Positions 2,625 through 8,365 of a stretch of 64,000 nt of DNA are shown here, piece by piece. Below the pieces are notes generated by a model that saw only the letters and a list, made by a program, of their open reading frames with translations, made no database searches and was not told where the DNA came from. This DNA is from Fervidobacterium nodosum Rt17-B1 (lineage in GTDB: Bacteria; Thermotogota; Thermotogae; Thermotogales; Fervidobacteriaceae): positions 806,001-870,000 of the forward strand of contig NC_009718.1 in assembly GCF_000017545.1 (NCBI RefSeq). Reading direction: 5' to 3'. Positions within the stretch are counted from its first letter, which is position 1. The number at the start of each line of letters is the position of its first letter. A program made the position numbers and the translations under genes.

Positions 2625-2746
2625 CTTAAAGGTGAAGGTTTCGGCCTATTAGTACCGGTTGGCTCCACGCCTCTCGGCGCTTCCACCACCAGCCTATCTA
2701 GGTCCTCTTCTCGGACCGGCCTTATGGAGGCCTCATCTCGGAGCGC

Positions 2747-2777
<31 letters not shown>

Positions 2778-2904
2778 GCTCAGGAGCGTAGCTACCCAGC
2801 GTATGCACTTGGCAGTACAGCTGGTACACCAGTGGCTCCCTCACCCTGGTCCTCTCGTACAAAGGGCGACCCTCCTCAAGCCTCCTACGCCCGCAGCAGA
2901 TAGG

Positions 2905-2939
<35 letters not shown>

Positions 2940-2947
2940 ACGTACCC

Positions 2948-2978
<31 letters not shown>

Positions 2979-3231
2979 CCTGCTTCAGCCCCAGGATGGG
3001 ATGAGCCGACATCGAGGTGCCGAGCCTAGCCGTCGATGTGAACTCTCGGGCTAGACTAGCCTGTTATCCCCGGGGTAACTTTTGTCCGTTGATCGACGAC
3101 CCTTCCACTCGGAGTCGCCGGGTCACTAGGACCGGGTTTCCCCTCTGCTCGACCCGTCGGTCTCGCAGTCAGCCCGGCTTTTGCCCTTGCACTCAACGGT
3201 GGATTTCCAACCCACCTGAGCCGAGCTTTGC

Positions 3232-3291
<60 letters not shown>

Positions 3292-3531
3292 CCTCGCATG
3301 CTCTCCACATGCGTAGGTTAGAACTCCGCTGCAACGAGGGTGGTATCCCACCGCCGGCTCCACGTGCCCTGGCGAGCACGCTTCTTCGCCTCCCACCTAT
3401 CCTGTACACGCCGCAACAGAGCACAATACCAGGTTACAGTAAAGCTCCACGGGGTCTTTCCGTCTAGCTGCGGGTACTGGGCATCTTCACCCAGACTGAA
3501 ATTTCACCGGGTCCCCTGCCGAGACAGTGCC

Positions 3532-3668
<137 letters not shown>

Positions 3669-3826
3669 CGGGCAGGCGTCAGTCCCTATACTTCCTCTCA
3701 TCGAGTTGGCAGAGACCTGTGTTTTTGGTAAACAGTCGCCAGGGCCATTTCTCTGCGACCACCTCGGCCTCCGTCAGTTTCCACCTCGCGGCTTCCCCTG
3801 ACTTCAACCTACCGTGGCACCCCTTC

Positions 3827-3860
<34 letters not shown>

Positions 3861-4445
3861 TGGCAAGGGTTATCCCGCTCCCCTTAGCTTTTTCAGCCCG
3901 CCTACCTGTGTCGGTTTGCGGAACGGGCACCTGCTAACCACTACACGCGGCTTTTCTTGGCAGTGTGGCGTCAGCTCCGTTGACCCCTTTCGGAGTCTCC
4001 CCTTCACGGCTCAGCTCAGGCTGCGGACTTACCTACAGCCCTCTTCGCCTAACCGCTTGGAGGGATTTGCCACTTATCCCCGGAGCTTAGCCTCCTGCGT
4101 CCCCGCTTGCAGTATCGGTTAGCCGGTGGTACCGGAATATTAACCGGTTTCCCATCGGATACCCCTTTCGGGTTTTCCTTAGGTCCCGACTTACCCTGGG
4201 CGGACGACCCTTCCCCAGGTACCCTTAGGCTTTCGGGGGGATGGATTCTCACCATCCTCTCGTATACTCATGCCTGGATTCTCACTTCCGCTTCGTCCAG
4301 TAGCTCTCTCGAGTCTACCTTCTCCCTACCGCGGAACGCTCCCCTACCAATCTACCTAACGGTAGATTCCGTGGCTTCGGGGGGTGGCTTCAGCCCCGCA
4401 CATTTTCGGCGCAGTGCGGCTCGACCGGTGAGCTGTTACGCACTC

Positions 4446-4479
<34 letters not shown>

Positions 4480-4529
4480 GTTGTCTGGGCCACACCACAT
4501 CCTTCCTCTTCACACTTAGCCACCTCTCC

Positions 4530-4537
4530 GGGCCCTT
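4530..4537. repeat. Target-site duplication, left copy (GGGCCCTT)
   Basis: GGGCCCTT at 4530-4537 is repeated exactly at 5597-5604, flanking the insertion sequence. The preceding base (C4529 and C5596) also matches, so the duplication could be read as 9 bp. Joining the flanks through one copy restores a continuous, conserved 23S sequence. Confidence 0.88.
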
Positions 4538-5596
4538 GATAATGTTAACTAAAAGTATTGAAACTTTCCAAAAACCGCATTATCCTTATAAAGAGGGGAC
4601 ACCCCCCAACCAACTCTCGACAAAGGAGGTATCCCGATATGAACAACTCAACGCTCTCTTGTCCAAAATGCGGTTCCACCAGCTTATACAAAAACGGTCA
4701 TGACAAATACGGTAACCAACAATTCCTTTGCAAACTCTGCCATCATTCTTTCAAACTCTCCCATTCTCAAAAACGCAAAAACTTCCCTTTCCCTTATCCC
4801 AAATGCACTTCTTGTGGTAAATCTATGCAAATTTACAAAGTCCGTCGCTCTTTCGTTGTCTTCCGTTGTAGAGCTTGTCGTACCAAAGATAGAGTACCTT
4901 TTAACCTCCCCGAACCAGTCACCCTTATTCCTGAGAAATTTAAATATTTCCGCTTCCCTATCTTTTTCGTCTTAAAGGCTTTTGTTTTGTATATGAAACA
5001 CAATATGTCTTATCGCTCTCTTGCTCATTCTCTTAATATCAAAGTATCTCATGTCACCATATACAAATGGGTTATTAAATTGTGTACTTTATTCTCTGTA
5101 CTTTTTCCAACATTTACCATCGAAAATGTTTTCTCAGTTCATGCTGATGAAACTGTTCTTGTGTTCAAAGAACAAAAGTACTATGTTTGGCTATTAGTTG
5201 ATCACGAAACTAACTTAATTCTTTGTTGGCATGTCTCAAAGTATCGTGATATGGGACAAGTCAAAGTATTGCTCGAGAAGTTCTTTGGTAATTCAAAACC
5301 TAGAAACATTGAACTTATTACTGATGGACTTGGTGCATATGAAAGTGCAGTAAAGCTGTTGTTCAGAAATATCAATCACGTAGTGGTACCGCTCGGTAAA
5401 AACAATCAATGTGAATCTAAGTTTTCATTGTTGAAAGACTTTTTCCGACTCAAGCGAGGGCTGAAGAATACGAAGAACTTAGCGAAATATATTCAAGGAT
5501 TTTGTGTAGTGAAGAATCTTTGGAAAACGCACAATGGCAATATCAATCGCATTCTTTCACAATTACACTCTTTCATCACTACAAGTTAACACTATC
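4538..5596 (+). mobile_element. Complete insertion sequence inside the 23S rRNA gene
   Basis: 1059 bp with imperfect terminal inverted repeats. The left end is GATAATGTTAACT and the right end, read inward, is GATAGTGTTAACT (12 of 13 identical; about 20 of 26 when extended). It is flanked by GGGCCCTT direct repeats and carries one transposase gene whose stop codon lies inside the right inverted repeat. These are the marks of a recent, intact transposition. The transposase resembles IS6/IS1-like DDE enzymes with zinc-ribbon N-termini; I cannot assign the family with certainty. The element is oriented against rRNA transcription. Confidence 0.9.
4639..5589 (+). CDS. DDE transposase with two N-terminal zinc-binding motifs
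   Basis: 316 aa from the ATG at 4639, chosen because AAAGGAGGT (4622-4630) sits 8 bases upstream; the same frame is open back to a TTG at 4558. The N-terminus has two cysteine clusters: CPKCGS...CKLCHHSF and CTSCGK...CRACRTK. The catalytic region shows D in 'VHADETVLVF', D in 'LITDGLGAYESA' and E in 'NNQCESKFSLLKDFF', consistent with a DDE triad of the IS6/IS1-like superfamily. By family knowledge it would bind the inverted ends and catalyse transposition. The reading frame is intact, so the element may still be active. It is transcribed antisense to the surrounding 23S rRNA, and TAA overlaps the right inverted repeat. Confidence 0.88.
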   Translation: MNNSTLSCPKCGSTSLYKNGHDKYGNQQFLCKLCHHSFKLSHSQKRKNFPFPYPKCTSCGKSMQIYKVRRSFVVFRCRACRTKDRVPFNLPEPVTLIPEKFKYFRFPIFFVLKAFVLYMKHNMSYRSLAHSLNIKVSHVTIYKWVIKLCTLFSVLFPTFTIENVFSVHADETVLVFKEQKYYVWLLVDHETNLILCWHVSKYRDMGQVKVLLEKFFGNSKPRNIELITDGLGAYESAVKLLFRNINHVVVPLGKNNQCESKFSLLKDFFRLKRGLKNTKNLAKYIQGFCVVKNLWKTHNGNINRILSQLHSFITTS

Positions 5597-5604
5597 GGGC
5601 CCTT
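5597..5604. repeat. Target-site duplication, right copy (GGGCCCTT)
   Basis: Exact repeat of 4530-4537 immediately outside the right inverted repeat. It is followed by 'agccgacggtctgggttgtt', the continuation of the 23S gene on the plus strand. Confidence 0.88.
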
Positions 5605-6628
5605 AGCCGACGGTCTGGGTTGTTCCCCTCTCGTCCGTGAAGCTTATCCCTCACGGGCTCACTCCCAGGATCTCGTGTGGCGGCATTCGGAGTTTGACAG
5701 GGTTCGCAGGTTACCCCACTAGCCCTACCAGCGCTCTACCTCCACCACAGAACTCCTGAGGCTGCACCTCAATGCATTTCGGGGAGAACCAGCTATCACC
5801 GAGTTCGGTTAGCTTTTCACTCCTACCCACAGGTCATCCGAGGATTTTTCACGATCCACCGGTTCGGACCTCCAGTGGGTTTTACCCCACCTTCATCCTG
5901 CCCATGGGTAGCTCACCCGGCTTCGGGTCTATCGCTACTGACTCGCGCCCTATTCGGACTCGCTTTCGCTCCGGCTCCGCCTTTATCGGCTTAACCTCGC
6001 CAGCAGCGATAACTCCCAGGCTCATTAATCAAAAGGCACATCGTCACCCTCGCGGGCTCCGACTTCTTGTAGGCATGCAGTTTCAGGTCTCTTTCACTCC
6101 CCTTCCGGGGGGCTTTTCACCTTTCCCTCACGGTACTGGTTGCGCTATCGGTCGGCGAGGAGTATTTAGCCTTGGAGGGTGGTCCCCCCTGATTCACGCG
6201 GGATTCCTCGAGTCCCGCGCTACTCGGGATCACAGTCACTCCTTCATCACTCATTTCGCCTACGGGACTGTCACCCTCTTCGGTCAGCCTTCCCAGACTG
6301 TTCAGCTATGAGTGATTACGGAGCGGACTCAGCCTAACTGTGTCCCACAACCCCAGCCTTTCGGCTGGTTTAGGCTCCTCCCCTTTCGATCGCCTCTACT
6401 CAGGGAATCTCGTTTGATTTCTTTTCCTCCGGGTACTGAGATGTTTCACTTCCCCGGGTCTCGCGCCTCTCGGCGTGCACGCTTTCACGTGCACAGGTTG
6501 CCCCATTCGGGTATCCCGGGATCAACGCTCGCTTGCAGCTCCCCCGGGCTTTTCGCAGCTTGCCACGCCCTTCTTCGCCTCTCGCCGCCTAGGCATCCAC
6601 TGCATGCCCTTACTACCTTCACCTTCTT

Positions 6629-6658: not shown

Positions 6659-6734
6659 TGGTGGAGACAAGGGGATTCGAACCCCTGACCCCCTGCTTGC
6701 AAAGCAGGTGCTCTCCCAGCTGAGCTATGTCCCC
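6659..6734 (-). tRNA. tRNA-Ala (TGC)
   Basis: 76 nt. The acceptor arm GGGGACA pairs with TGTCTCC (one G-U), the anticodon arm is CCTGC-TTTGCAA-GCAGG, and the T-arm contains GGTTCGAATCC. The CCA end is encoded (6661-6659). It lies in the 16S-23S spacer, downstream of tRNA-Ile. Confidence 0.95.
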
Positions 6735-6739
6735 ACCCA

Positions 6740-6816
6740 TGGTGGGCTCGGGAGGAATCGAACCTCCGACCTCACGCTTATCAGGCGTGCGCTCTGACCT
6801 TCTGAGCTACGAGCCC
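6740..6816 (-). tRNA. tRNA-Ile (GAT)
   Basis: 77 nt including an encoded CCA. The acceptor arm is GGGCTCG / CGAGCCC, the anticodon arm CACGC-CTGATAA-GCGTG gives GAT, and the T-arm contains GGTTCGATTCC. The Ile-Ala pair in the spacer is the common bacterial rRNA operon arrangement. Five bases separate it from tRNA-Ala. Confidence 0.95.

Positions 6817-6854: not shown

Positions 6855-8365
<1,511 letters not shown>

Follow-up and report, generated by a model that had tools for sequence, protein, structure and literature searches.

One of the two rRNA operons of Fervidobacterium nodosum Rt17-B1 carries an insertion sequence within its 23S rRNA gene, and the position that it occupies is among the best mimics of a translation-initiation region in that gene. 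Elements of this kind follow a one-sided target rule, seen at 73 of 90 insertion sites and again in distant relatives, in which the left end of the element keeps a near-fixed distance from a start codon. In all likelihood, an IS6-like (ISCpe7-like) element that selects translation-initiation regions entered one of the two operons at a position resembling a start site, and the second operon sustains the cell. An earlier sequence-only reading of the 64,000-nucleotide stretch analysed here (the window; contig NC_009718.1, positions 806,001 to 870,000) had described the insertion and treated its site as arbitrary; this last point does not stand, given the strong target rule of the element and the rank of the 23S position.

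The interrupted 23S rRNA gene and its intact counterpart

The Rfam model LSU_rRNA_bacteria recognises the interrupted 23S rRNA as one split gene at 2629-6623 on the minus strand of the window. It belongs to an operon, all of it on that strand, with a full-length 16S rRNA gene (6858-8365), a spacer (6659-6816) containing tRNA-Ile(gat) at 6740-6816 and tRNA-Ala(tgc) at 6659-6734, and a 5S rRNA gene (2487-2603) downstream of the insertion. The 1059-bp element occupies 4538-5596, in plus orientation, between two exact copies of the octamer GGGCCCTT (4530-4537 and 5597-5604), and its terminal inverted repeats (TIRs), GATAATGTTAACT on the left (4538-4550, plus strand) and GATAGTGTTAACT on the right (5584-5596, minus strand), agree at 12 of 13 positions. 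The size of the element, its matched ends and the exact 8-bp target-site duplication (TSD) are thus as the sequence-only reading had given them. It had also claimed that a continuous gene is restored once the element and one repeat are deleted; removal in silico leaves 2928 nt that differ from the other genomic copy at only two positions, 1475 and 1537, both far from the insertion site. The TSD corresponds to positions 1000-1007 of the Escherichia coli 23S rRNA, which agrees with the proposed location 5' of the GTPase-associated centre, at about 1051-1108.

The spare operon that had been suggested as one way of surviving such an insertion indeed exists. The genome, a single contig of 1,948,941 bp, contains two 23S matches, the interrupted one and an intact one (C1:1280712-1283639), and the second operon is complete. 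With the element and one repeat taken out of the interrupted operon, identity reaches 99.96% across 5199 aligned nt, with two mismatches, both in the 23S rRNA, and no gap. The cell and the insertion would survive because the second operon is intact, and nothing was found in the data that requires RNA-level tolerance, the other way that had been considered. The interrupted gene is probably non-functional and would make no ribosomes.

It is very improbable that the interrupted 23S rRNA still works, either by excision of the insert or as a functional rRNA in fragments. Intervening sequences processed by RNase III behave in this manner in other bacteria (PMC2672173, in the part available), and the two differences in 2928 nt amount to almost no decay. 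The near-identity of the operons, however, fits a recent insertion or gene conversion, either of which would explain the lack of decay equally well. Moreover, the insert is 1059 nt long, lies antisense, has ends of only 13 bp and sits near the GTPase-associated centre. An assembly artefact, in which a copy of the element was joined to an rRNA repeat, has next to no chance of being the explanation. The element (six copies) and the operon (two copies) are both repeats, but a mis-assembly would need to produce an exact 8-bp TSD at its junctions, at a site that also fits the target rule, and the other operon is separate and complete in a genome of one contig.

Insertion of an insertion sequence into a 23S rRNA gene is a known kind of event. 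The accessible portion of a 2009 survey of 184 species reports two with transposase-encoding 23S inserts, both verified by PCR, namely Deinococcus radiodurans (1067 nt) and Nostoc sp. (1471 nt), in which, as here, one of several 23S copies is affected (PMC2672173). Those inserts encode transposases of other families (COG3335 and COG3547), and no target rule is described for them in that portion of the survey (PMC2672173). Among the 20 genomes of our family search, 12 gave a 23S match and eight gave none, and only in F. nodosum Rt17-B1 did an insert extend a full-length 23S match.

The element, its copies and its classification

The transposase frame is open, as had been claimed, and encodes 316 aa from an ATG at 4639 (4639-5589, plus strand), with an SD-like (Shine-Dalgarno-like) aaaggagg visible by eye at 4622-4629. 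An N-terminal zinc-ribbon region is followed by the DDE_Tnp_IS240 domain. The IS240/IS6-type DDE domain matches PF13610 (E 3.6e-47; 160.4 bits against a cut-off of 27), and the zinc-finger extension of about 90 aa matches PF03811 (29.6 bits against 26.1) and NF050000 (43.4 against 28). The strict IS6 equivalog NF033587 scores 93.8 bits against a cut-off of 125, and for this reason we do not class the element among the strict IS6/IS26 elements. A single-sequence AlphaFold model of the transposase has a mean pLDDT of 46.4, with only residues 5-88 above 50, and a Foldseek search of the PDB with this weak model returned nothing at E<=0.001. Its best match (E 0.01), at most a hint, was chain I of an RNA polymerase II complex, a tandem zinc-ribbon subunit. 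A sequence search of the PDB yielded no meaningful relative of the transposase (one match, E 0.44), and the viral contigs searched held no match.

Six near-full copies of the element exist in the genome, five of them identical, and this identity suggests recent activity. The sixth (L008, C1:1528047-1529100) has 14 mismatches to the window element, all within the first 51 bp; it is a hybrid whose left end starts like a sister element and whose remainder is identical to the window element. Only two of the six copies, that of the window and one at C1:39252, are flanked by a TSD, and the other four count against the reading that we favour. The sister element, of 1046 bp and with 67% DNA identity in the aligned part, is present in 14 full-length copies. 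Altogether, 23 matches at E<=1e-40 are present in the genome, and PMC5398504, in the available part, gives the same number of ISCpe7-like copies for F. nodosum. A contig of Fervidobacterium UBA8196 encodes a transposase 98% identical to that of the window. Two further ideas were discarded. An outward promoter keeping the target gene expressed is not indicated, as three candidate sites in 4480-5660 (both strands) compare with a mean of 2.5 in shuffled sequences. An in-frame TAG in 10 of the 14 full sister copies does not appear to be inactivating, since it sits at codon 18, before what would be the position matching the ATG of the window element.

The Fervidobacterium copies have already been named ISCpe7-like (PMC5398504, in the part seen). 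The excerpt of Harmer and Hall (2019; PMC6807381) available to us groups six IS6-like elements with an N-terminal zinc finger, ISCpe7, ISClte3, ISCbo1, ISTps1, ISTps1a and ISNth1, as clade VII of the IS6/IS26 family, proposes that the longer bacterial elements be separated from the family, and found no experimental data for them. The window element shares with this clade the IS240-type DDE transposase, the added N-terminal zinc-finger region, the 8-bp TSD and the short TIRs. The listed members measure 1226-1349 bp, however, as against 1059 bp for the window element and 1046 bp for its sister (a Cetobacterium relative considered below, at 1271 bp, falls within the range), and the element is therefore filed as ISCpe7-like in architecture and not as a proven member of clade VII. 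The core IS6/IS26 members such as IS26 and IS257 have the IS240/IS6-type DDE domain, the 8-bp TSD and copies with exchanged flanking octamers (for IS26, see the consulted part of PMC7986276) in common with it, but are without the N-terminal zinc finger that the window element has, according to the excerpt of PMC6807381. The same excerpt makes no mention of a start-codon target rule for clade VII.

A target rule registered on the start codon

A C-rich tract, the complement of a Shine-Dalgarno (SD) sequence, was seen just outside the left TSD in the flanks of the copies, and copies from three related genomes were therefore added. The resulting set holds 95 copies, 27 in G002, 22 in G003, 23 in G004 and 23 in F. 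nodosum (three of these degenerate), which, less five duplicates, represent 90 distinct sites; two near-full copies (G002:C1:1634266 and G004:C1:910627) and truncated matches were left out. The TSD is exact in 56 of the 95 copies and has one mismatch in two more, and in nine of the remaining 37 the octamers are exchanged with those of another copy. Such copies mark recombination between elements: L087/L089 and L093/L094 in G004, L115/L117 in G003, L134/L145/L136 in G002 and, outside this set, L187/L188 in Cetobacterium, one of these being a three-way cycle. The exchanged TSDs fit recombination between copies, and cointegrates are not implied by them. About a dozen short copies in G003 match no more than about residues 1-98 of the transposase, its N-terminal part; they may be non-autonomous derivatives that arose by internal deletion.

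Two properties of the flanks were scored: whether an NTG at offset 23-25 from the element end opens an ORF of 60 codons or longer, and whether the anti-SD pairing energy is <=-7 kcal/mol. A start codon lies 23-25 nt from the left end at 73 of the 90 sites and from the right end at one of 89; on the left, each of five further bins of three bases, spread over 13 to 65 nt, holds 4 to 8 of the 90 (among them 33-35, 8; 43-45, 4; 53-55, 5; 63-65, 6). The SD energy is reached in the left flank at 86/90 sites and on its other strand at 0/90, as compared with 2/89 on the outward strand and 4/89 on the other strand of the right flank, and with 5.3% of 20000 background 16-mers. The base profile on the left is sharp, with C at -14 in 85 and at -13 in 82 of the 90 sites and the CA of the reversed start codon at -27 and -26 in 55 and 58 of them, and that of the right flank is flat. 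ATG, GTG and TTG all occur as start codons at the sites. Counting against the rule, 17 of the 90 sites have no qualifying start at 23-25, and four have an SD energy above -7, in two of them above -6 (L004 and L157, the latter the outer member of a tandem pair). Another element, or the left end of one, begins 7 or 8 bp behind the first at L105, L114, L121, L146 and L153, as expected if one start region is hit twice and only the gene side matters.

Which of the two landmarks sets the distance could be gauged where they vary. In nine sites with an unusual SD-start spacing, the start register is kept in eight and the SD register in three, and at 20 sites where GGAGG and ATG are both perfect, the ATG scatters by 0.67 nt and the SD by 1.16 nt. 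That the start codon is held more tightly than the SD is suggestive only, because a cruder SD estimate gave an equal spread (1.73 and 1.69).

The rule extends to distant relatives. In a plasmid element of Cetobacterium (Fusobacteriota), whose transposase is 29% identical, all three copies in the record lie at offsets of 24, 24 and 23 from the ATGs of ORFs of at least 458 codons; the TSD is exact in one copy and the octamers are exchanged in the other two. Of 18 left ends of a relative in G010, from another genus, with 35% transposase identity and a different TIR, nine lie at 23-25 from the start of an ORF of 40 codons or more, so that half do not fit at this distance; 11 lie at 23-27, and 14 show SD-like energy. 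These left ends were inferred from TAGACTG, and the 18 were obtained after leaving out one copy, L160, at the edge of a contig, and repeated instances of one locus. Three G010 copies (L233, L240 and L243) appear to be nested within the element itself, inserted at a C-rich stretch of its left end. A 61% relative in G018 is represented by one copy without a TSD; it has an SD and, judged by eye, an ATG at offset 24. A degenerate 34% copy in F. nodosum (L054) has no SD and counts against the favoured reading.

Among the controls, nine ISL3 copies of the same genome (two of 11 matches being dropped as truncated) show a start at 23-25 in 0/9 on either side and SD-like energy in 1/9 on the left and 3/9 on the right. 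For a Rhizobium IS6 element, which aligns to the window transposase only from residue 81 on, two of eight left ends are SD-like and one of eight has an ORF start within 20-28 nt (at 24); the other eight of its 16 copies gave no left end by the exact pattern.

The 23S position and the choice of target

Directly outside the left TSD, the sense strand of the 23S rRNA gene carries an SD-like tract, GGAGAGGTGG (4520-4529, minus strand), and a GTG follows at offset 24 from the left end of the element (4511-4513, minus strand), so that the target reads, in the sense direction, GGGCCC-GGAGAGGTGG-CTAAGTGTG. A matrix built from the 88 non-rRNA sites places the insertion at rank 2 of 5794 oriented positions of the gene, with the start part alone at 1 of 5794 and the SD part alone at 261 of 5818. 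Its score, 8.68, falls close to the lower quartile of the real sites (25th percentile 8.6; median 12.46), which counts against the favoured reading. A matrix from the 38 TSD-bearing sites of the other genomes only ranks the site 2 of 5812, or 4 of 5824 in a narrower version, and one from the 22 other sites of F. nodosum ranks it only 41 of 5812, or 47 of 5824, again a count against. From these ranks, the 23S site is a good but not a perfect mimic.

Further copies lie at rRNA, tRNA and terminator positions. A copy in G004 (L088, G004:C1:1638588-1641016) interrupts a 16S rRNA gene, with the exact TSD CTTCCTCC within GGAGGAAGGAGGGGATGACG, at an SD-like tract; the 23S rRNA of this operon is intact, as is the other full operon. 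Scored on the F. nodosum 16S rRNA, this site ranks 64 of 2954 overall, 44 of 2978 for the SD part and 916 of 2954 for the start part, a weaker fit than that of the 23S site. The interrupted 16S rRNA differs from the intact G004 copy by 12 mismatches in 1155 nt on one side and by none in 364 nt on the other. Also in G004, a third, truncated 23S rRNA (C1:1622758-1624453) ends at another copy (L091), as expected from an IS-mediated deletion. A degenerate sister copy in F. nodosum lies about 10 nt before a tRNA-Gly gene, and the copy in Fervidobacterium UBA8196 (L063/L066, G007) has an exact TSD at what appears by eye to be a terminator-like hairpin with an SD-like stem.

According to the mechanism that we favour, an active, recently amplified IS6-like element would have transposed into one of the two rRNA operons by way of a transposition complex that selects translation-initiation regions. 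Its left end would join the target upstream of both signals, about 24 nt from the start codon and about 12 nt from the GGAGG-like core of the SD, with the transposase gene reading away from the target gene and an 8-bp duplication being made. Most likely, the transposase, through its zinc ribbons or the HTH, would read the SD and start region directly from the DNA, and would do so on one side of the synaptic complex. The 23S position would have been hit as a mimic because its SD-like tract and its GTG are suitably placed.

Three other accounts of the site deserve weighing. A random insertion into the 23S rRNA gene, tolerated through the spare operon and resembling a start site by coincidence, is quite unlikely. 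A spare intact operon does exist, transposase-bearing 23S inserts occur in unrelated bacteria (PMC2672173, as far as available), and the matrix of the genome itself gives a rank of only 41, with the SD part of the full matrix at 261; yet the full and other-genomes matrices both rank the site second, the element group obeys the rule at 73 of 90 sites, and the second rRNA insertion, that of G004, is likewise at an SD-like tract. Selection in place of targeting, with insertions arising everywhere and survivors remaining just upstream of genes, has very little chance of being the right account. Most sites do lie just upstream of an ORF and spare the coding sequence, but selection would also permit other upstream offsets, and the tested bins at such offsets hold 8, 4, 5 and 6 of 90 sites against 73. 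Further, the orientation is one-sided, ISL3 in the same genome has none of nine copies at 23-25 on either side, and the rRNA and terminator insertions follow the SD-like motif though these are not gene starts.

A third alternative, which we consider unlikely, is that the choice of target is guided by a translation-initiation complex (the 30S subunit on nascent mRNA) or by nascent RNA, and not by a reading of bare DNA by the transposase. The apparently tighter hold on the start codon (8 against 3 of 9 sites; 0.67 against 1.16 nt at 20) and the occurrence of all three start codons speak for it. Against it, the cruder estimate shows equal spread and only nine sites are informative, the one-base register and the 8-bp stagger would suit direct contact with DNA, the terminator site L063 is SD-like without, by eye, a start codon at 24, and rRNA is untranslated. 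The hits in rRNA genes and at a terminator favour reading of the sequence over active translation, and the start-codon register leaves a translation-coupled route open.

Start-codon-registered targeting by the ISCpe7-like transposase group was not found in searches of an open-access library, and the part of PMC5398504 available, which counted these Fervidobacterium elements, makes no mention of rRNA, 23S, Shine or target site. A bolder and rather doubtful generalisation would be that ISCpe7-like elements are start-codon-registered transposons across phyla, which read the SD and start codon as a unit with the start as the ruler, perhaps not as a plain DNA motif but through nascent RNA or the initiation complex, and which hit rRNA genes as initiation mimics.

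Most bacterial insertion sequences are treated as having a loose target preference, and gene-proximal safe-haven elements such as Ty1 and Ty3 of yeast and Tn7 insert at a near-fixed place beside genes. An element group that holds a fixed distance from the start codon to about one base would constitute a bacterial counterpart of such safe-haven targeting; the landmark here differs in being the translation start, SD plus start codon, and in lying on only one side of the element. Such targeting could explain how small thermophile genomes come to carry dozens of copies with their coding sequences presumably spared, and also why some copies have entered rRNA genes, lie ahead of a tRNA gene or occupy a terminator. 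For a transposase group on which the 2019 analysis, in the excerpt consulted, found no experimental data (PMC6807381), it provides a precise target code that can be put to the test. A broken rRNA gene thereby reveals an unusual insertion-site rule of a mobile element.
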